Shown here piece after piece: positions 5,901-62,903 of a stretch of DNA of 64,000 nucleotides (position 1 is its first letter; every line of letters starts with the position of its first letter). This stretch comes from Gracilaria domingensis. Its lineage: Eukaryota > Rhodophyta > Florideophyceae > Gracilariales > Gracilariaceae. The notes beneath the pieces are model-generated. The model did no database searches, was not told where the DNA came from, and saw nothing but the letters and a program-made list of their open reading frames with translations. Location: assembly GCA_022539475.1 (NCBI GenBank), contig VCMS01000097.1:1-64000 (forward strand), in the 5' to 3' direction. Both the position numbers and the translations under genes were made by a program.

Positions 5901-6975
5901 TGTTGGTAAAATGCACCTCAAGCCGAATGACGCAGACGAGTGTGTCTACACCGGGATCATACTGGGTTTCTTGGTTATCATTGCTCTGTGTGTTGACGAC
6001 TTGCTGATTGCGAGTCCGAGCATGAAAACCGTGGAACGTGTGAAGGCAGAGCTGTCAAGTCGTTTCCGCATGAAGGACCTCAAAGAAGCTCGCATGGTTC
6101 TTGGATTTGAAATCCATCGAGACAGAACCAAGCGAGAGCTGTACTTGACTCAGTCAGCGTACACGAACAAGGTCCTTGAGCGATTTGGCATGCAGCTGTC
6201 GAAACCCGTTGACACTCCTATGGAGTGCGGTGTGGACTTGTCTGTTGACGAGGAAGTGCTCACGCATGTACCGTATCGTCAGGCGATTGGCTGCCTCATG
6301 TATCTGTCTGTGGGAACTCGTCCAGACATCTCATATGCGGTGGCCAAGCTGGCCAAGTATGTTGAGAAGCCGGGAAACACTCACTGGAAGGCGGTCAAGC
6401 GTGTTCTTCGCTACCTCAATGGCACTACCACGTTCGGGTTGACGTATGGCTCCAGCACCGATTTGCAACTGCACGGCTATGTGGGCTCTGACTGGGCTGG
6501 CGATGTTGCCAACCGCAAGTCCACTAGTGGATACTTGTTTATGATGTGCGGTGGTGCTGTGTCGTGGTCGTCTCGTCAACAGGAGGTAGTTGCTCTGTCG
6601 AGTACAGAGGCTGAGTACGTGAGCTTGTGCTCTGGCACCAAGGAGGCGATCTGGCTTAGGCGACTTTGGAACGGCATTGGCATTGTGATTGGCATGGAAG
6701 CAGACGGGTCTGTAAAGCTGCTGGTTGAATCAACTCCCATGTATGTTGACAACCAGGGCAGCATTGACCTTGCTCGAAATGGAGTGGTGAACAGGCGAAC
6801 CAAGCATATTGAAATTCGGTTCCACTTCACTCGAGAAGCTCTGCAGGCCAAGTCGATTGTGCTGTTCTACTGCCCAACGGATTCCATGGTTGCCGACATG
6901 CTGAATAAGCCGCTTGCGCGAGTGAAGCACGAGAGGTTCCGCGAAGCCGGTGGTGTGATTCACATAGAAGTTTGA
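2943..6975 (+). other. A2 gag-pol coding region (fossil)
   Basis: Gag begins MDSFSGLKIEKLGEDNFHTW. A Copia-type capsid follows, then a CCHC zinc knuckle (C-x2-C-x4-H-x4-C, around 3593-3635), an aspartic protease with DSGATAHMT, an integrase with zinc-binding and catalytic core, reverse transcriptase with a CVDDLLIA catalytic motif, and RNase H. The domain order protease-integrase-RT-RNase H is diagnostic of Ty1/Copia. The region is broken, with about three breaks, but close in sequence to the nearly whole copy A4. Confidence 0.92.
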
Positions 6976-6999
6976 AGTCAGTGACAGAGGGGGGGGGGG

Positions 7000-7785
7000 T
7001 GTTAGATGTTGACCATGTGCTGTCACTGAAAACCAAAAGTGCTGGGGAGCATGGGCTGTTTTGGAGGGTGCCGTTGGAAAAGCGCATATGCGCCTCTGCG
7101 CAAACTCAACGTGAAACGGGCTTCTGATTGGCTACTGCAAATGGTCATATGCATTGTGCTTCGTACAAGTGTTGTGGCGCTAATGGGTTGTTTCCGGGGT
7201 ACACGTGTGTAGCTAGTACACTGGGCATACTGTACATGATGCACAGGGTACACACGTATGTACGTGGACATGTAGGACAGCTTCATGTGACTTTGGCACT
7301 ATGGTGAAGAGTAAATGCGCTGTCAAGAGGTTTACACTGTGGTATTGTTGGTGACGTAGGACTTGGAGTGAGTTTGTGGTGACGTGTTAGTTGGTGAGCT
7401 TGTACGTAAGTGTTATGGTGGCGTGTACGGATTACAGTGTGTTGGCACTATGTGAATCTGTGCATGGTCATGGTTATGTGTAGGCACGTAACTTGATGTG
7501 CACGGTTGTGCACTGTTGTGCGTTGTTGTGCTTTGTTGTTGTAAGCTGTCATGATAGTGTGGCAGTGTTACCATGTTATGTTAGAAGATGATTGGTAGTA
7601 TTGAGTGTCTCTAGCTAGTGGTTTAGGTATTGCTTGGAGTTGGAGTTGTGCGATGGTTGCGCAAAGTAGTTCTATATAAGCGGTGACTCGAGCGCCTCCA
7701 AGTAAATTCCGAGCCAGAGCTGGCGAACTTCCCTTCATTCCCCTATCCTTTCTTCAACCTTCCCTTTCAGCTTCAACCTCTATCA
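7000..7785 (+). repeat. 3' LTR of A2
   Basis: A 786-bp LTR matching 914-1699 with about six differences. It has the same internal marks: palindrome, inverted CCAAT and TATATAAG at 7673-7680. It follows an extended G-tract at about 6989-6999, which is the polypurine primer for plus-strand synthesis. Confidence 0.92.
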
Positions 7786-10135: not shown

Positions 10136-10783
10136 GTGTGCTCAGCGTTTGGGGTTGTCATCTGAGGTCCAGCGACGAGCGGTTGATCCGAGCAATCGGG
10201 GACGTTAGTCTGGCGGCTTGAACCAAAGCGGACGTGCTGTCGAGCGGGCTCCCACCGGTCCTCCGGGGCGGATAACGGTGTCGGTCGGAAGACCTGGTAG
10301 TACCGCGAGTGCTAAAGTGGACGGGGTGCCGTGACGCACTGTTGGACTTGGGTGGCTCACCTTTGTTGTGGTTGACCTGACTATGTGTCGAGTTCTTGAT
10401 CTGTGGTGAAGGCAAACCGAAACTAGCTTTTGATCCGTGCAACCTCGGTTGAGCGAGGAGGCGACGTACCGAAGGCGGACCTCTTTTTCAGGATCAGGCC
10501 GCGTGTGGGCATTATTGTCTGCTCGTTAGGAGCGTACCTCGGTTTGTGAAGTAGCCGCAGTTTCGAGGTCGCGCAAGTTCTTGCAAGAGGCCAGATTGGG
10601 TTAAGTGGTGAAGACATATCTTTGGTCATTAACCATCCTTTGGACGCCTCGTAGAGAGCAACGCGCCTTCTCCTGGAACGTAGGAGGAGGTAGACTGCAG
10701 AATTCGTTTCCTACCCGGAGGGTCCCCGGGGGTCATGGGTCCGATCCCCTAGGGTACTGGGAATTTAGTTCCTGCCAGTGGTC

Positions 10784-10788
10784 CCGAC
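10784..10788. repeat. Target-site duplication of C1 (left)
   Basis: CCGAC directly left of C1. The matching CCGAC is at 14897-14901, and the A3 leader continues across it, as in the uninterrupted leader near 33325. Confidence 0.88.
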
Positions 10789-11780
10789 TGTTAGAGGTTA
10801 TAGCTGGGATCGGAAAGTTGACATGAGAAAGGATGGAGGGATGCAAGGGAAGTTCGCCAGCTCTGGCTCAGATTTACTTGGAGGTGCTTGAGTCACAACC
10901 TATATAGCACTTCTTCGCTACTCCATCATGGGACTCCAACTCTGACCAACATGCAACTCACTAACCAGAGACACTCAATACTACCAATCATCTACAGACA
11001 TAACATGGTAACAGTGCCAAACTGTTTACAACAGCAGTGCACAACAACGCACAACAGTGTACAACAGTGCACAACAATTCCGTACACTACTGCACAGCAG
11101 TGCACAACAATGCACAACAATGCACACCAATGTAGTAGCCATGCACGTCCCTGACAGTCTACCGACACATTTCTACAGCACACCACGAGCACCACACATC
11201 AATGCAGTCAACAATATGACAGCTCACCATAGTAACACGAACATGCATACACACAATGCAACACCTCACCATCATGACCAGCCATGCTTACGGAACATCA
11301 CATCACACTTCACGTGTTGCTGGCACGCTGTAATCTGTACACCACACCGTAGTTTGTACGTGCCAGATACCCAAGTCCCACATCATCAACAAGTACCAGT
11401 AAACCACATGACGTCAGTCACTTAGCTGCAACATGTTCCATTCATCCATACACACACATTTGCATGTAGCACAACTCAAACATGGTGTAAACTTCGCAAC
11501 ACTGACAGTGCTGCCACCTGTACTTTGTGTGCACATACATAGCCTTCAACCCTGTACTTCATGACCACTGTACAACCTGTCATCGTTTACCTTGTGGTCA
11601 TCCCTGCTGAACGATAGTGTTCCAGTGTAGCCATAAACGTTCAACCCATACTGAGTATACCACACAGCAACGTAGTATACCAAACAGAACAACATCAATC
11701 TCGGTTTCACGTAGCAAGGTACCATTCTAGACTCCACACATCTCAACTGCTTGATGTCAGTGACAGCATGACTTCCAACA
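10789..11780 (-). repeat. 3' LTR of C1 (992 bp form)
   Basis: In the minus orientation it runs from TGTTGGAAGTC (11780) to CTCTAACA (10789). Its end resembles the family A LTR, while its start (U3) is unrelated. It contains repeated GTGCACAACA-like decamers at about 11028-11140, the C version of the TTGTGCACTG repeats of family A. Sequence to the right contains two further polypurine/LTR-start-like steps at 12011 and 12140. Confidence 0.82.
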
Positions 11781-12211
11781 CCCTCCCTCTGTTACTGACT
11801 TCAAGCAACCAGCGCTTCTGGTCAATTACATGCTAAGTAACAAGTCGGGCAGTCAAGAAACCAATGTTACTGCAAATAAACCTTACGATGGCCAACGGTG
11901 ACAACCAAACATCAAATGCAGTTAGTGTGTGTCCAAGCCTACGGCTGTACCGTTCTACCAGTATACCAAGATCATAGTTCTGTTCTGTACGATTCGGATG
12001 TTCTGGAAACACCCTCCTTTTGTCACACACTCTGAACTTCTTACTCATCCTTCGTATGGCAACGAAGACAACAGCTTCCGGTTCAAACAGATATCAACAA
12101 CAGACAGTGAGAGCCTAAGTCTGAGGATGTTACTCTGACACCCTCCCTCTCTCACTGGCTTTGAACTTCTCTCGGAACCAAAATGCACCTCAGAGTCCTT
12201 CACAAAAGGGA

Positions 12212-12818
12212 TCTAGACGTCCACAAGTGACCACATTCTAGACACCGAAAAACGAATGTTGCTCCGAGCATGTAACACATAACAACTTCTCGGAGCATCA
12301 TTAATCACAGTAATGTAACCAGACATGCAAACACACGCAATCTTCTGATTCAAGACCGATTTTCTGAACACCGGACATGAAACAAGTAGCAACCTTCCGG
12401 TTCAATATCACTTTCTTAACAGCTGGACATGCAAAACAGAGCAACCTTCCAGCTCAACAACTCTCTTCAAACAGCGGACATGCAAAATCACAGCAACCTT
12501 CCGCGAATAACACACAAAGAGAATTGCAACACAAGCATCCTGGACTTGCAAAATGACAACCTTCTAGGCCCCGTCCATACAAAGTGATGTCCTACACACT
12601 CAGGCATGAAACACTTAAACTCCTGAGTCAAACAGCTCTTTCATTCACACCGGACATGCAGACACATAGCAAACTTCCAGTGACAACAAACTGAAACAAA
12701 GAGCAAAACAAAAATCACAAGCAATGAAACAAACACTCAGGCGTGAAACACTCAACCTCCTGAGTCAATTAGCTCTTCCATACACACCGGACATGCAAAC
12801 AAATAGCAACCTTCCGGT
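12212..12818 (-). repeat. Array of about ten short hairpins with co-varying stems
   Basis: Successive inverted repeats of 4-9 bp enclose similar 17-26-base loops; on the plus strand the loops start CATG or similar, most are A-rich, and many end near CAACCTT. Clear stems: 12212-12217/12237-12242 (TCTAGA), 12260-12268/12289-12297 (9 bp), 12370-12375/12396-12401 (ACCGGA/TCCGGT), 12421-12427/12448-12454 (AGCTGGA/TCCAGCT), 12474-12478/12500-12504 (GCGGA/TCCGC), 12598-12604/12622-12628 and 12735-12741/12759-12765 (both ACTCAGG/CCTGAGT), 12786-12791/12813-12818. Weaker ones lie at 12320-12347, 12539-12568 and 12648-12682. Stem bases change while pairing is kept, which points to selection for structure or to copying of palindromes. 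Confidence 0.7.
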
Positions 12819-13089
12819 ACAACATAAGTAAAGCGAAGAGCACAGCACATATCCCGGGCATACATAACGACAACCTTCTGAGCCTGCGTAAGGAAGTAAC
12901 GATAACAACGGACAAGTAACATCGCAACTTTCCAAAGTTGATACAAAGAAGAGCTCAGACATGTTCAACAACAAACACACATGAAGTGCCATAAATGAAT
13001 CTCACACACAGTCTTAGGCAGGAAACACTCCATCTCTTGAACTGTAGCGAGCATAACAGAAACAAATTGCAAGCAATCGGGTGCATAAG

Positions 13090-14164
13090 GAACTAAGATT
13101 CCTGGTACCCTAGGGAGTCGGACCCCTGACCCCCGGAGACCCTCCGGGTAGGAAACGACTTTCTTCTGTCTACCTCCTCCTGCGTTGCAGGAAAAGGCGC
13201 GTCGCTCTCTACGAGACGTCCAGAGGATGGTTAATGACCAAAGATATGCCTTCACCAAGTTAAACCCTCTCTGGTCTCTTGCAAGAACTTGCGCGACCCT
13301 GATACTGCAGGTACTATGACAAACCGAGGTACGCTTCCAGCAAGCAAACAACCAAGTTCACTAGCGGCCTGATCCTGAAAAGGAGGTCAGCCTACGATAC
13401 GTTGCCTCCCCGCACCACCGCAGCAGTACGGATCAAAAGCTCGTTTCAGTTTGTCTTCCCAACAGATCAAGAACCCAACACACAGTCAGGTCACACACAA
13501 CAAAGGTGAACCACCCCTGTTCGAAGCAGTACGTCACGGCACCCCGTCAACTTCAGCACTCGCCGTACTACCAGGTCTTCCGACCCACACCGTTATCTGC
13601 CCCGAAGGACCGGTGGGAGGCCGCTCGACAGCGCGTCCGAATTGGTTCAAGCCGCCAGACTAACGTCCCCGATTGCTCGGATCAACCGCTCGTCGCACCG
13701 AAACTCAAGTGATCACCACAAATGCCGAGCAAACAGGCAGTGCCCGGACTTCAACGAAAAAACGAATGCTGAGCACAACACACAAGTGCACAGACTTCAA
13801 CGACAACGGTACTCAACCCCTCGGATCAGAACCCGCAAACACGACACGGGGATCCCAACAACGAAAACAGAGGCGAGAAACCAACAAGAGCGGATAGCGA
13901 TCGACGAAAACGAAAATGAACAAGAAACAAAACCGAATCACGAAAGTAGAACAACGTCGAACCACTACCACCACAACGCCCTCAAGGAAGAACGCAAACC
14001 AAAAGAGAAAAACAACACCACCAAACCGGTCAACGACAAGAAACACGACGGCAAGCAAACATCGAAAACATCAACAACGGCGCTGAACAACACGGCCGGC
14101 GGTGAGGGAGAGCGGCGGAAAGGGAAACCTCATGACGAACGACAAACGGCAGAGGTCAGCGGGG
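13090..14164 (-). other. C1 leader, including the structured segment
   Basis: Minus-orientation leader closely related to the family A leader (compare 1714-2790). It includes the four-hairpin segment at about 13090-13270 and the upstream conserved blocks. Open frames here are unlikely to be coding, because the same sequence is the untranslated leader in A copies. Confidence 0.75.
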
Positions 14165-14178
14165 CTGGGCCCATAACC
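14165..14178 (-). other. C1 primer-binding site
   Basis: On the minus strand GGTTATGGGCCCAG follows the 5' LTR. It is identical to the half initiator tRNA-Met site of families A and B. Confidence 0.85.
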
Positions 14179-14896
14179 TGTTAGAGGTTATAGCTGGGAT
14201 CGGAAAGTTGACATGAGGAAGGATGGAGGGATGCGAGGGAAGTTCGCCAGCTCTGGCTCAGATTTACTTGGAGGTGCTTGAGTCACAACCTATATAGCAC
14301 TTCTTCGCTACTCCATCATGGGACTCCAACTCTGACCAACATGCAACTCACCACAAACTCACTCCAAGTCCTACGTCACTAACAACACCACACTGTAATC
14401 CTCTTGACACCGCATCAACTCTTCACCATAGTGCCCAAGTTACACCAAGCTGTCCTACATGTCCACGCACATACGTGTGTACCCTGTGCATCATGTACAG
14501 TATACCCAGTGTACTAGCTCCACACGTGTACCCCGGACACAACCCATTAGCGCCACAACACTTGTACGAACCACAATGCATATGACCATTTGCAGTAGCC
14601 AATCAGAAGCCCGTTTCACGTTCACTTTGCGCAGAGGCGCATATGCGCTTTTCCAACGGCCCCCTCCAAAACAGCCCATGCTCCCCAGCACTTTTGGTTT
14701 TCAGCGACAGCACAGGGTCAACATCCAACACAGCATTCCAATGTAGCCGTAAACGTTCAACACATACTGAGTATACCACACAGCAACGTAGTATACCAAA
14801 CAGAACAACATCAATCTCGGTTTCACGTATCAAGGTACCATTCTAGACTCCACACATCTCAACTGCTTGATGTCACTGACAGCATGACTTCCAACA
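14179..14896 (-). repeat. 5' LTR of C1, an A/C mosaic
   Basis: Both ends match family C, but roughly 14352-14731 is family A U3 sequence, including the GCGCATATGCGC palindrome and the complete A-type LTR start. The mosaic part replaces the C sequence present in the other LTR, so the two LTRs differ in length (718 and 992 bp). Template switching between co-packaged RNAs, or later gene conversion, would explain it. Confidence 0.78.
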
Positions 14897-15092
14897 CCGA
14901 CTATTGAAGTTTTTGTTGTTGTTGTTGTTGTTTGCCGTTGTTGTTGTTTGCAGTTGTTGTTGTTTGCTTATGTTGTTTGCTACTGTTGTTTACTGCTGTT
15001 GTTTGCTGTGGTTTTTTTGCTGTCGTTGTTTGCCGTTGCTGCCTATCTGCCACCGCCGTATTTGATTTGCTCCCGTGTTCCCTTCTTACAAC

Positions 15093-15897
15093 ATGGATTC
15101 GTTCAGTGGACTCAAGATCGAGAAGTTAGGTGAGGATAACTTCCACACCTGGAAGCAGAAGATTCAGTACGTACTTGCACTGAAAGACCTCAAGAACCAT
15201 CTCACCACTTCTGCACCCACCGATGAAGAGGAACCGGCGAAATGGCAAATACGAGACGAAAGGGCTAGAGCGATCTTTGGACTCACGCTTGCCGACGAGC
15301 ACTTGGATCACATTCGTGACATCGACACTGCCGCTGACGCATGGAAAGCCATCTGCAATGTGTTCCAACGCAAGTCTCTTCTGAACCGAATCAACGACAA
15401 ACGTGCTTTTTACTCTGTCAAGATGCGCGAGGACGAGAAGATGTTACAATTCATCAATCTTGTTCGGTACTTGGCCTCCGACCTCAAGAGTATGGACGTC
15501 AACGTTGAAGAAGAGGACATTGCCATGGCCGCTCTGTGTGGACTTCCGGAACGTTTTGAGCACCTCATTGTTGCAATTGACACCACGATCGGAGATCGCC
15601 AACTCACCATGGAGTTTGTGAAGAGCCGTCTGTTACAAGAAGAGCAACGTATGAGTGATCGTGCGAAGGAGGAGTCTGGTGGTGATGCAGATCAGATCGA
15701 TGCTGCTCACCCAAGTGTGCATACCGAGCTCAACGATGAGCAGGGTACGGGCGGCACCGATTCCGACTTTGTATGCCTCATTGCAAATGGTGCCGACAAG
15801 GCCACTAACAGTGACTGGATTGTTGCCTCTGGAGCTACTGCGCTCATGACTTATGATGACTCAATGTTCCAAACGTACGAGACAAAGGTGTCGTCGG
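15093..15897 (+). other. A3 gag and early pol (fossil)
   Basis: Gag beginning MDSFSGLKIEKLGEDNFHTW, continuing into the protease region. It ends at the C2 insertion with target duplication GTCGG (15893-15897). Relative to A2 and A4 the zinc-knuckle region is missing. Broken. Confidence 0.85.
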
Positions 15898-17352
15898 TGT
15901 TAGAGGTTATAGCTGGGATCGGAAAGTTGACATGAGGAAGGATGGGGGGATGCAAGGGAAGTTCGCCAGCTCTGGCTCGGAATTTACTTGGAGGTGCTCG
16001 AGTCACCGCTTATATAGAAATACTTTGCGCAACCATCGCAAACCTCCAACTCCAAGCAATACCTAAACCACTAGCTAGAGACACTCAATACTACCAATCA
16101 TCTCCTAACATAACATGGTAACACTCCCACACTATCATGGCAGCTTACAGCAACAAAGCGCAACAGTGCACAACAGTGCACAACAACTTACGTGCCTACA
16201 CATAACCATGACCATGCACAGATTCACATAGTGCCAACACACTGTAATCCCTACACCACACCATAACAGTTACGTACAGGCTCACCAACAACACTTCAGC
16301 ACAAACTCACTCCAAGTCCTACGTTACCAACAACACCACACTGTAATCCTCTTGACGCCGCATCAACTCTTCACCATAGTGCCCAAGTTACACCAAGCTG
16401 TCCTACATGTCCACGTACATACGTGTGTACCCTGTGCATCATGTACAGTATGCCCAGTGTACTAGCTACACGCGTGTACCCCGGAAACAACCCATTAGCG
16501 CCACAACACTTGTACCAACCACAATGCATATGACCATTTGCAGTAGCCAATAAGAAGCCCGTTTCAAGTTGAGTTTGCGCAGAGGCGCATATGCGCTTTT
16601 CCGACGGCACCCTCCAAAACAGCCCATGCTCCCCAGCACTTTTGGTTTACAGTGACAGCACAGGGTCAACATACAACATAGCACAACTCAAACATGGTGT
16701 AAACTTCACAACACTGACAGTTCTGCCACCTGTACTTTGTGTGCACATACATAGCCTTCAACCCTGTACTTCATGACCACTGTACAACCTGTCATCGTTT
16801 ACCTTGTGGTCATCCCAGCTGAACGATAGCGTTCCAGTGTAGCCATAAACGTTCAACCCATACTGAGTATACCACACAGCAACGTAGTATACCAAACAGA
16901 ACAACATCAATCTCGGTTTCACGTAGCAAGGTACCATTCTAGACTCCACACATCTCAACTGCTTGATGTCAGTGACAGCATGACTTCCAACACCCTCCCT
17001 CTGTTACTGACTTCAAGCAACCAGCGCTCCTGGTCAATTACATGCTAAGTAACAAGTCGGGCAGTCAAGAAACCAATGTTACTGCAAATAAACCTTACGA
17101 TGGCCAACGGTGACAACCAAACATCAAGTGCAGTTAGTGTGTGTCCAAGTCCACGGCTGTACCGTTCTACCAGTATACCAAGATCATAGTTCTGTTCTGT
17201 ACGATTCGGATGTTCTGGAAACACCCTCCTTTTGTCACACACTCTGAACTTCTTACTCATCCTTCGTATGGCAACGAAGACAACAGCTTCCGGTTCAAAC
17301 AGACATCAACAACAGACAGTGAGAGCCTAAGTCTGAGGATGTTACTCTGACA
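15898..17352 (-). mobile_element. C2, solo LTR of family C (long form)
   Basis: Flanked by GTCGG at 15893-15897 and 17353-17357, with A3 pol continuing across. No internal region is present, so it is a solo LTR of 1455 bp. Its start in the minus orientation is TGTCAGAG at 17352, which corresponds to position 12140 in C1, well outside the shorter C1 LTR. Inner LTR-start-like steps lie at 16992 and 17223, with the same spacing (231 and 129 bp) as in C1. The middle (about 15985-16674) is family A-like U3, so this LTR is also a mosaic. Confidence 0.8.
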
Positions 17353-45839: not shown

Positions 45840-46050
45840 TATTGGAAGCGGCGGTGTGCGGCGAGCGGGGCGGATCGATAAGGTGCACGCGTTGACCGCC
45901 GGCGATTCAGGCACTCGCCGGAACGGTCGTGCATTTTATTTGGTTCCAAGCGCCGCAACGGGCGGCGCGACTAAGCGCGCCCGCAACGCCGTCACAAACG
46001 TGGCGCGCGTTCTCTGCGCTCGCCTCGCAAGAGGTCTTCGGCGCGTAACA
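45840..46050 (-). repeat. 3' LTR of D
   Basis: 211 bp, GC-rich, in minus sense from TGTTACGCG to CTTCCAATA. About 440 bp separate it from the end of pol. Confidence 0.8.
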
Positions 46051-52084: not shown

Positions 52085-52295
52085 TACTGGAAGCGGCGGT
52101 GTGCGGCGAGCGAAGCGGATCGATAAGGTGCACGCGTTGACCGCCGGCGAGTCAGGCACTCGCCGGAACGGTCGTGCATTTTTTTTGGTGCCAAGCGCCG
52201 CAACGAGCGGCGCGACTATGCACCGCTGCAACGCCGTCACAAATGTGGCGCGCGCTCTCTGCGCTCGCCTCGCAAGAGGTCTCCGGCGCGTAACA
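52085..52295 (-). repeat. 5' LTR of D
   Basis: A 211-bp LTR, same orientation and about 93 percent identical to 45840-46050. Confidence 0.8.
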
Positions 52296-56446: not shown

Positions 56447-59400
56447 TCAGATTTCCCTGTGCAGCCTCTTTCGTGAGGATTTTGACAAGCCTCCGAGTTG
56501 AAGAGACAAATCTTCTGGAAACCACTTGGTTCCCGTCAACAAACCCTGAGAATGCCGAAGATCGTCAATGATGTAAGTCCTTTGGCTTGTGGAGGTTGCA
56601 GATCTAGGATACTGGATCTGGACGACTCCAACAGGATGGCTCATAGAGCAGACACTTTCTATAGTGCGACAAGGAAACAAGGTCTCATCGTCAACAGATG
56701 ATCGACAATACACCTGTCCCTGCCTCCCAGTCTGTAAAGAACGAGTTGCCCAGTCAGCAAGTACAAGCTTGTGGGTAGTCCCATTTAGAGTGTGCTTGAA
56801 AAATGCCAACACCCTACCGTAGTAAACAGTAGCGTGAGTGTCATTCCCATCACGAAACACTCCAGAAAAGTAGCAAGACTTCCGTTCGTTTCTCGATACA
56901 GTATGATAGGTCCACGGCATAAGCAACCTTGTTTTCTCGTCCTTAGCACGAGAGAAAACCGATATTGTTTCTTCACTTGCCAAAAAATTGGCGGCTTCAC
57001 TTGTGGAAACGCCAAGAACAGTAGCATAGTACCGGGCCAGCAGCGACATTAGATTGGGAAATGAATCCTGTCCCACAGTAACTGATGAAATGCGAGAAGG
57101 CGGTAGGAAATAAAATCGACTCATGTCAGCATCATAGTAGACCTCTGGGTTACCTTCTGCGTTCGAAAGGTCGGAGTCTTCATCTTCTTCTGGAGCAAGA
57201 TGAGGGATGACAGTTCCGTATTGCAGACTGTACAACGAGGCTGCCGCGTGGTACTTGATCTTCTCATTCACAGATTGAGCAAACAAATACTTAGCATTTG
57301 TAACCCGATTCAGCTGGCCAATATAATTCTCTATGGTCCATTGACCCAACAAAGAGACTGGCCCACAATCTCGGATACATTGACTTAGATGTAGAAGCAA
57401 GTGATAGACGTATCTGCACATATGGACCCGCTCTCTCTTGTTCTGGTAGTAATGATTGACAAAATGATGATAGAACTCGCGAGAAAGTCGCTCAATATCA
57501 CAAACAAGATCCTCCGTGAGGCTCCATTGACACACTCTTTGGACCAGTTGCACAAATAAGTACCACCCGTCTAATGTTTTCTCTGGTATCCATCCGTCCA
57601 AAACGACCACGCTGGTTGAAGTCACAAAGAATTTCCACTCCGCTGCCTTCCAAAGTCCCTTTTTGTCGAGTCCACGTGGTGCTCTGCAATAGTCGGAGCC
57701 AAAACCTCTTCTGCAAGAGCGAATATTCTCATTGACGGCCTTGAGCACCCTAGGACTGGTAAGGCATCCTAGTTCCGGATGGCGGCCAGAGTCGTTCATC
57801 CATATTGAGATCATATCGCGAGCCACATTTTCGAAGAGAAGATGCATTATGTCAATTGGGAATGAGCTGAATGCCCGTACAGTTGGTATGCTTAAGAAGG
57901 GTGTCATAGTGATGCTCGAAAATCCATGATGTTTTAGCTGACGCTGTAGTTCCTGGTTGGTCATTGTGCTACTTTGCATCTGTAACTCTTCGTACGCACT
58001 AAGAACTTCACTGTGCGATCGCATGGGAAGATTGTCCACTTCCCAAAGTACTTTCAAGTTCGGAACATTGGTTCTCGCTCTTGTTGTTCGAGATATTGCT
58101 CCTTCCTCAACCAAAGTGGGAGGAAAATATGTGTGGTTTTGGTAGATCCCGCGAATGGAGCAGAAGCGACACGGCACAAGTCCGTTTGCTCCCTTCAGAT
58201 GGGTGAGCTTCTTCATGGCAGGTAGATCAGCAAGAACGAAAATTAGATGAACTCGTACTCGCGTTACCTCTCCGTTCCACAGTCTTACTCTTCGCCCGAC
58301 ACTATGCAGGTCTTGAAGCTCTGAAAGAAACGGATGAAGAAAGGACGTAAGATCCTTTGGCTCATTCGGACCGGGAATGATAAACAAAGGCAGGAGGCGT
58401 TTGATCTTGAACCTTTCAGACGGCGGAAGGTTAAGAACTGTACAAACGAATGGCCAGTACGTGTAGTCGTCGGATCGAAAAGGTTGAACTCCATCTGCAG
58501 AAATGGAAAGAAAGATGTCGTTCTGAACGCTTTCCGGTCCACCTAAGTCACTTACAATATCCCTGAAGATCTTTCCGGAGAAGAAGTCTCTGTAGCCTCC
58601 AGTCGTCTCACCAAACAAACCCTTCCTAAAGTAGTCAAAGAGTCTTGGACCTTCAATTGGGCTTGCCAAAAGTCGTTGCAACCTACACCATATTGAAATG
58701 TATTCATATGTGGCAAACGTTGCACCATCAGGCTGAGAACAGTAGCTACAATTGGTTACAAAATGATCCGCTCTCACGCGAAGTGCCTTATGAAATCTAC
58801 CACAGCACGGATGCTCACTCGATTCAACACCAGAATTTCGCAGCAATGCCTCTCTTACGCCTTTGAATGAAGAGTAACGAAGATGTGGCTCATCTTGAAC
58901 TGTTGTATCTCGGATATAATCCTCCATGAAACTGTCGGAAACAGCATGCTTAATCCCCAGTCCTAGTACCTTGGAGTGCTTCTGCATGAAGATTCTGAAC
59001 TTGAAATCTCTGCAAACTGGATAACCACTTGATATAAGAGCATTGGGGTCACTATTGGAAGTTTCAATGGGGTTGTTTGCGGTAGAGCTGGTTGTGCTGC
59101 CAGAATAAAGGGAACTCTCTGAGCTCAAAGACATCTCATTTGTTTTTGTTGTGCTCTCATCGTCGGCATCGGTTGAACAATCGATACTGCTATTACGATG
59201 GTGGGAAACGCTTTGGGTTGGACTTTTCAAGCTGGATTGAGAAAGCTCTAGTGATACCGAATCATGACTGTTGAGAACACTTATCTCGGCATCTGACAAG
59301 CCGAGATGATTTGATTCTCCAACGTGTTCAAGAGCATCCCATACTGCCTGTAACTGTGAGAGATCATGAATAGCTTCTGGAAGTGGTAGAAAGATTGTCT

Positions 59401-59527
59401 TTCCGGATTCCAATGCCTCATTTTGCGATTGAGATCTGTGCTTCATTGCGGTCTGCCTCGACACCATCTTCCCAGGATAACAACGACAATGGTAGCTGGC
59501 ATGACAAATATAACCGAGGGAAACCAT
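56447..59527 (-). CDS. TNP2-type transposase of a CACTA transposon, intact
   Basis: An uninterrupted frame of 1026 residues from ATG 59527. The N-terminus has a Cys/His cluster (CHASYHCRC) followed by VSRQTAMKHR, typical of TNP2 proteins. A Ser-rich linker (about 75-160) precedes the catalytic region: SADGVQPF (Asp about 345), LADLPAMKK (Asp about 434) followed by a CRFC zinc ligand pair, FPIDIMHLLFENV (Asp about 559) and WTIENYIGQLNR (Glu about 733), which could supply the acidic residues of an RNase H-fold transposase. The C-terminal third resembles the conserved TNP2 C-terminal region. The transposase cuts and pastes the element by binding its terminal repeats. Unlike the nearby host genes it has no stops, suggesting recent or current function. 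It is divergent from 59920-61251. Confidence 0.85.
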   Translation of the reverse strand: MVSLGYICHASYHCRCYPGKMVSRQTAMKHRSQSQNEALESGKTIFLPLPEAIHDLSQLQAVWDALEHVGESNHLGLSDAEISVLNSHDSVSLELSQSSLKSPTQSVSHHRNSSIDCSTDADDESTTKTNEMSLSSESSLYSGSTTSSTANNPIETSNSDPNALISSGYPVCRDFKFRIFMQKHSKVLGLGIKHAVSDSFMEDYIRDTTVQDEPHLRYSSFKGVREALLRNSGVESSEHPCCGRFHKALRVRADHFVTNCSYCSQPDGATFATYEYISIWCRLQRLLASPIEGPRLFDYFRKGLFGETTGGYRDFFSGKIFRDIVSDLGGPESVQNDIFLSISADGVQPFRSDDYTYWPFVCTVLNLPPSERFKIKRLLPLFIIPGPNEPKDLTSFLHPFLSELQDLHSVGRRVRLWNGEVTRVRVHLIFVLADLPAMKKLTHLKGANGLVPCRFCSIRGIYQNHTYFPPTLVEEGAISRTTRARTNVPNLKVLWEVDNLPMRSHSEVLSAYEELQMQSSTMTNQELQRQLKHHGFSSITMTPFLSIPTVRAFSSFPIDIMHLLFENVARDMISIWMNDSGRHPELGCLTSPRVLKAVNENIRSCRRGFGSDYCRAPRGLDKKGLWKAAEWKFFVTSTSVVVLDGWIPEKTLDGWYLFVQLVQRVCQWSLTEDLVCDIERLSREFYHHFVNHYYQNKRERVHMCRYVYHLLLHLSQCIRDCGPVSLLGQWTIENYIGQLNRVTNAKYLFAQSVNEKIKYHAAASLYSLQYGTVIPHLAPEEDEDSDLSNAEGNPEVYYDADMSRFYFLPPSRISSVTVGQDSFPNLMSLLARYYATVLGVSTSEAANFLASEETISVFSRAKDEKTRLLMPWTYHTVSRNERKSCYFSGVFRDGNDTHATVYYGRVLAFFKHTLNGTTHKLVLADWATRSLQTGRQGQVYCRSSVDDETLFPCRTIESVCSMSHPVGVVQIQYPRSATSTSQRTYIIDDLRHSQGLLTGTKWFPEDLSLQLGGLSKSSRKRLHREI

Positions 59528-62763: not shown

Positions 62764-62810
62764 GGATACCAGTGTTTGTCAAACTGTTGAGTCGTGCGCT
62801 GTTTGGGAGT

Positions 62811-62861
62811 TTTTTTTTTTTTTTTTTTTTTGTTTTTTTTTTTTTTTTTTCTTTTTTTTTT

Positions 62862-62903
<42 letters not shown>
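62811..62903. repeat. Poly-T run next to the assembly gap
   Basis: About 90 bases of almost pure T with a few interruptions. The gap starts a few bases later. Probably a homopolymer at which assembly failed; length unreliable. Confidence 0.8.

Follow-up and report, generated by a model that had tools for sequence, protein, structure and literature searches.

The window analysed here, a stretch of 64,000 nucleotides of the red alga Gracilaria domingensis, contains a non-autonomous copia-type LTR element, C1, together with a copy of an autonomous relative, A. The genome carries phycobilisome genes, most of them on contig C680, and gave no match to the chitin synthase family PF03142, in keeping with a red algal host. 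The features of C1 are as follows:

10789..14896, minus strand: C1, non-autonomous copia-type LTR element, delimited by sequence and LTR comparison
10784-10788 and 14897-14901: target duplication CCGAC flanking C1, read from the sequence
10789..11780, minus strand: 3' LTR, 992 bp; this LTR stands twice per element in other copies
11781..11790, minus strand: polypurine tract PPT1, beside the 3' LTR and within the loop of a hairpin
12141..12149, minus strand: second polypurine tract PPT2, directly downstream (in sense) of the array region
13077..14178, minus strand: leader common to C1 and A, about 83% identity by sequence comparison
14164..14178, minus strand: primer binding site with the sequence GGTTATGGGCCCAGC, complementary to the host tRNA-Met in its anticodon arm
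14179..14896, minus strand: 5' LTR, 718 bp, by LTR comparison

The primer binding site adjoins the LTR at 14179, and 15 of its 15 letters are complementary to the tRNA-Met anticodon arm, as checked in two tRNA-Met genes taken from the four genomic places with the pattern. Priming from an internal tRNA site is also used by copia of Drosophila. The polypurine tract beside the 3' LTR has the minus-strand sequence AGAGGGAGGG. Since the primer binding site and the polypurine tract are so placed on the minus strand, this strand is the sense of C1, and the earlier note had thus read the antisense of the element. The 5' LTR resembles the 3' LTR of C1 at its ends and the autonomous LTR in its middle. 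The longest sense open reading frame of the internal region measures 128 aa, and a scan of four of the five sense frames of at least 60 aa returned no Pfam family at E≤0.1. Elsewhere in the window, a 1026-aa open frame that by eye looks like a transposase was seen on the minus strand (56447-59527), as were a run of 94 T (62810-62903) and, away from the copia nest, a 211-bp direct repeat of 93% identity (45840-46050 and 52085-52295).

Between the leader and the polypurine tract, where the autonomous element has gag-pol, C1 carries an array of hairpins with the following units:

12212..12242, minus strand: u0, with a TCTAGA stem and a loop unlike that of the other units (11.2 bits, E 1.1)
12260..12297, minus strand: hairpin u1
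12317..12350, minus strand: hairpin u2
12370..12401, minus strand: hairpin u3
12421..12454, minus strand: hairpin u4
12474..12504, minus strand: hairpin u5
12539..12568, minus strand: hairpin u6, with an A-C mismatch in C1 but fully paired in most copies
12598..12628, minus strand: hairpin u7, short loop
12648..12682, minus strand: hairpin u8
12735..12765, minus strand: hairpin u9, short loop
12786..12818, minus strand: hairpin u10
12852..12883, minus strand: degenerate unit u11 (12.1 bits, E 0.59)
12906..12937, minus strand: degenerate unit u12 (15.3 bits, E 0.069)
13010..13043, minus strand: u13, decayed in C1 and paired in other copies

The inverted-repeat array at 12212-12818 is real. The earlier note had described about ten inverted repeats there, and these are present with the stems and the loop ends that it gave (CATG...CAACCT on the plus strand); the degenerate units carry the array past 12818, to about 13043. 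That note had also asked whether shuffled sequence of equal composition would give as many. Non-overlapping stems with loops of 14-24 bases were counted in 12212-12818 and in 1000 dinucleotide shuffles per setting. Watson-Crick stems 6 bp or longer numbered 8 in the real sequence; the shuffles gave 0.93 on average and never more than 4, so that 0 of 1000 were as high. The same held for Watson-Crick stems of at least 5 bp (9 against a mean of 3.32, 0 of 1000) and, once G-T pairs were allowed, for those of 6 bp or longer (7 against 2.64, 0 of 1000). With G-T pairs, stems of at least 7 bp numbered 4 against a mean of 0.92 (6 of 1000 as high), and those of at least 5 bp showed no significant excess (8 against 6.13, 180 of 1000). 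When the whole window was scanned in steps of 100, the most stem-rich 607-base stretch began at 12201, with 7 stems against a mean of 1.28.

The structure of the unit was derived from 34 units with RNAalifold, to which no structure was supplied. An outer stem of length 7 is followed by an internal loop of the 4-by-2 type and then by an inner stem of 3 bp; in sense the order is 5'-stem, AGGU, UGX, apical loop, X'CA, UG, stem-3', where AGGU/UG forms the internal loop and the apical loop is variable. On this structure 95.6% of the cells pair. Covariation reached 0.677 against 0.275 in shuffles, none of 500 being as high, and at most 0.144 in slid versions of the structure. For the inner stem alone it was 0.376 against 0.098 (0 of 500 as high), with UGC/GCA, UGA/UCA and UGU/ACA used interchangeably and GGA/UCC in one unit. 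The count of outer-stem pairs changed on both sides did not exceed that of the shuffles (184 of 500 as high), and neither did the count of further pair types (69 of 500). Folded singly, six of eight units adopted the shared shape, and two short-loop units folded differently.

The 34 units had been picked for diversity out of 72 listed ones, and pairing had been a requirement for entry in that list. Because they were thus selected partly for pairing, the pairing test was redone with units chosen by their loop letters alone in 4 of the 34 aligned arrays described below, namely C1 (13 units), L009 (14), L018 (16) and L041 (16). In this order, the inner six positions were paired in 89.7, 91.7, 86.5 and 78.1% of cases, against 72.3, 73.9, 72.3 and 65.9% when arms were exchanged between units, and 0, 0, 0 and 7 of 5000 permutations were as high. 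The letters of the inner pair had played no part in picking; this pair was standard in 11 of 13, 13 of 14 and 14 of 16 units in 3 of the 34 arrays, where 107, 9 and 8 of 10000 permutations, respectively, were as high. The test inside arrays replaced an earlier one based on the motif alone, which covered entire loci and took up many matches outside the arrays; there, 59.7% of 141 distinct flank pairs were paired, compared with 45.8% on permutation (maximum 51.6% in 2000).

In order to follow the array through the genome (77.9 Mb searched), the unit sequence and the loop-letter pattern were used, a search that may miss arrays whose loop letters differ. When up to three mismatches were allowed, one unit sequence was found at 50 places and its reversed control at none, and the looser pattern AGGTTGN{5,13}GCATGTC at 281 places (100 of them listed) against 23 for the control. 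Thirty-six loci (L009-L044) were fetched as copies, and 33 of them hold the array between both anchors (all except L013, L039 and L044). In the 34 aligned arrays, C1 included, 2722 of 3048 ungapped pair cells are Watson-Crick, the remainder being 163 sense G-U, 104 antisense G-U and 59 mismatched cells. Four more diverged copies (L045-L048; array identity 87-92%) retain most units as well, and in L048 the stem AGCTGGA/TCCAGCT has become AGTTGGA/TCCGGCT with its pairing in sense intact. The earlier note had proposed, at the place of gag-pol in a non-coding LTR element, a structured module present in many copies whose stems covary, and this description holds. It had named loss of pairing in other copies as a refutation; across the 33 further and the four diverged copies pairing is kept in most units, and units are broken in single old copies, for example four or more in L041.

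Tandem repeats of 52 bp and 137 bp occur in varying number, the 137-bp count differing among copies. The 13 elements with two full LTRs of the same type show an LTR divergence of 0-0.51% (median 0.1%), and a 5-bp target duplication was found in five of them. Judged by this low divergence, the carriers of the array are recently mobile. On the genome contigs C161, C422, C553 and C316, same-strand C arrays are spaced 3.1-3.6 kb apart, which is about the length of one LTR plus internal region, as if C stood in tandem. A run of about 28-29 A was seen inside the array of L034. L048 had been considered as an array behind a pol gene and was rejected, as the window comparison points to a second copia family adjoining a cut C array; a pol and LTR-like stretch of that family (L048:161-2485) directly abuts it.

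Within the units, 73 variants were confined to a single copy and 26 were common to at least two copies, compared with 115 and 90 elsewhere (p = 0.0037). Shared variants are thus fewer in the units relative to singletons. At a threshold of three copies p was 0.073, and without the extra-repeat columns 0.24; since significance is lost at this threshold, we take the depletion as no more than suggestive of selection. The evidence on the acting strand is mixed. Where copies share a non-Watson-Crick pair within an outer stem that is otherwise intact, three kinds are sense G-U and none is of the reverse type, and the inner pair is U-G in two to three units and C-A in one. Single-copy changes showed no strand bias (13 sense, 11 antisense), antisense-type G-U occurred in more pair columns across the copies (22 against 13 in sense), and the degenerate unit u11 has two A-C pairs. 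A choice of strand by folding failed, the antisense being as good or better: the mean outer-pair probability was 0.875 in antisense against 0.706 in sense for C1, 0.872 against 0.812 for L009 and 0.901 against 0.853 for L018, and the folding z-score was -4.5 against -1.8. On the orientation of the element, the sense (minus-strand) RNA is the likely acting strand. Overall, we conclude that the array is a real, structured module, probably selected at the RNA level and with a putative function.

The products of A carry copia gag and reverse transcriptase domains and a CX2CX4HX4C zinc knuckle. C and A share the leader, the primer binding site and a PPT hairpin, which is compatible with C being moved in trans by A. 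At the pol/LTR junction A has no array: with 40 of 168 candidates scored, all 41 of 41 matches to its 3' end pass directly from pol to the LTR, and the copy of A in the window gave only one weak unit match (E 1.9).

PPT1 sits in the loop of a hairpin in which 10 of 11 positions pair, and PPT2 in one with 11 of 12; the autonomous PPT is placed likewise. The polypurine tracts of C and A were seen in the loops of 10-11-bp hairpins at 11759-11801, 12102-12160, 890-950 and 6975-7030, the PPT2 hairpin differing from that of A by a compensatory pair (GACAG/CTGTC against GAGAG/CTCTC). None of the 22 matches of the unit model at E≤5 falls on a PPT hairpin, and a descent of the array units from such a hairpin found no support in this search. 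A 1455-bp insertion with the target duplication GTCGG (15898-17352) looks like a solo LTR, and in sense it begins at PPT2 of the C family (the position equivalent to 12140); the C LTR in turn begins 165 bp farther upstream than the autonomous LTR. From such sequence comparisons, the LTRs seem to lengthen through upstream polypurine tracts.

According to our analysis, C1 is LARD-like. LARDs are described as non-coding, presumably trans-complemented elements with a well-conserved RNA structure (PMC7215508), and C1 has two LTRs, a target duplication, a primer binding site and a polypurine tract, an internal region of about 2.4 kb with no recognisable coding content, and a conserved RNA secondary structure in its core, likely acting in sense. 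LARDs such as Sukkula share with C1 the LTRs, the core domain and the lack of coding capacity, and they are presumed to move in trans (PMC7215508), as C may. Unlike in LARDs, a single hairpin type repeats regularly in tandem to form the structure of C1, and the host is a red alga. Classical LARDs are also larger than the internal region of about 2.4 kb found here. A row of one hairpin type in such an element was not reported among the literature matches listed. Retrozymes, too, are described as non-autonomous LTR elements with a structured RNA, a PBS and a PPT, but the structured part is in their case a hammerhead ribozyme located in the LTR (PMC4918200). No such ribozyme was found in C1, which was rejected as a retrozyme because the window has no Rfam match at gathering scores. 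A search of 10700-15100 at E≤1 returned only mir-3747 in an LTR (E 0.064), dismissed with 25.4 bits against a gathering score of 63. C1 was likewise rejected as a TRIM, a type with short LTRs and almost no internal domain, as its LTRs measure 718 and 992 bp and its internal region about 2.4 kb.

We posit, at about even odds (roughly 0.5), that the array of this LARD-like element is a multi-site docking domain selected at the RNA level, which the Gag of A perhaps uses in packaging. The sense RNA of C1 would carry the tandem hairpins upstream of the polypurine tracts, selection on the RNA would keep the pairing and the internal-loop letters, and each hairpin would be a putative docking site, a dozen or more per RNA providing avidity. 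Fixed internal-loop letters, stems kept only by their pairing and many repeats are the trace expected of multivalent docking. With less confidence, we suggest the zinc-knuckle Gag of A as the ligand, since C codes for no proteins and shares the leader, the primer binding site and the PPT hairpin with A; the array would then allow the gene-less C RNA to be gathered and packaged in trans. Because the window copy of A holds a single weak unit match, an encounter of its Gag with the motif in its own RNA is putative. Stem loops are also the form of retroviral packaging signals, and in RSV the Gag zinc fingers are described as reading the packaging stem loop O3 of Psi (PMC5035971). Such retroviral signals lie at the 5' end. 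The packaging sequences of Ty1, Ty3 and HIV-1 are likewise placed in the structured 5' end, and Ty3 packaging is stated to need both UTRs and POL (PMC11381356), whereas the hairpins of C1 are many and lie near the 3' LTR.

The absence of the array from A fits an advantage of C over A as well as a role that A does not need, for example the export of untranslated RNA. Read in the latter way, the array would be a nuclear-export or RNA-stability element recognized by a host factor, would resemble the export elements of simple retroviruses and mouse retroelements in what it does and in lying close to the 3' LTR, and would supply an untranslated RNA with what a gag-pol mRNA obtains otherwise. The export elements CTE and RTE are located at the 3' end. 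The musD MTE, the MLV PTE and CTE/RTE are, like the array, described as multi-hairpin non-coding modules of retroelement RNA (PMC5767303), but the known elements are folded domains with long-range contacts and not rows of equivalent units, and C1 showed no match to them in sequence and none to Rfam in the array. We regard an export or stability function as possible but doubtful.

That a palindrome-generating process alone produced the array, as the earlier note had allowed, is disfavoured, given that internal-loop letters are conserved and that an inner stem covaries inside what that note had taken as the loop. Template switching during reverse transcription, by which one arm is copied onto the other, together with functionless duplication of units would agree with the variable 52-bp and 137-bp repeats, the many units with perfect arms and the mixed strand evidence. 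It leaves unexplained, however, the fixed loop letters at both ends beside drifting stems, the covarying 3-bp inner stem beyond an unpaired 4-by-2 loop and the units that hold one wobble across many copies, and we consider it improbable. We give still less credence to the idea that the hairpins, being related to the PPT hairpins or assisting them, act in reverse transcription, for instance by guarding or spacing the plus-strand primer: all three polypurine tracts lie in hairpin loops and the array ends just upstream of PPT2, but the unit model finds no PPT hairpin and the units contain no purine tract.

To our knowledge, it is largely open how non-autonomous LTR elements have their RNA chosen by the machinery of another element. 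Under the docking reading, C may carry a multivalent RNA address, made of a dozen or more hairpins with a fixed internal loop and drifting stems and adjustable by gain and loss of 137-bp repeats, with which it would compete with A for the moving proteins; this further step is tentative. The array is in itself a ready-made mutational series that shows which letters matter, and its unit provides a test ligand of about 35 nt. Laboratories use hairpin tags to tether proteins to RNA, and if docking is what the array does, it would be their counterpart in nature.
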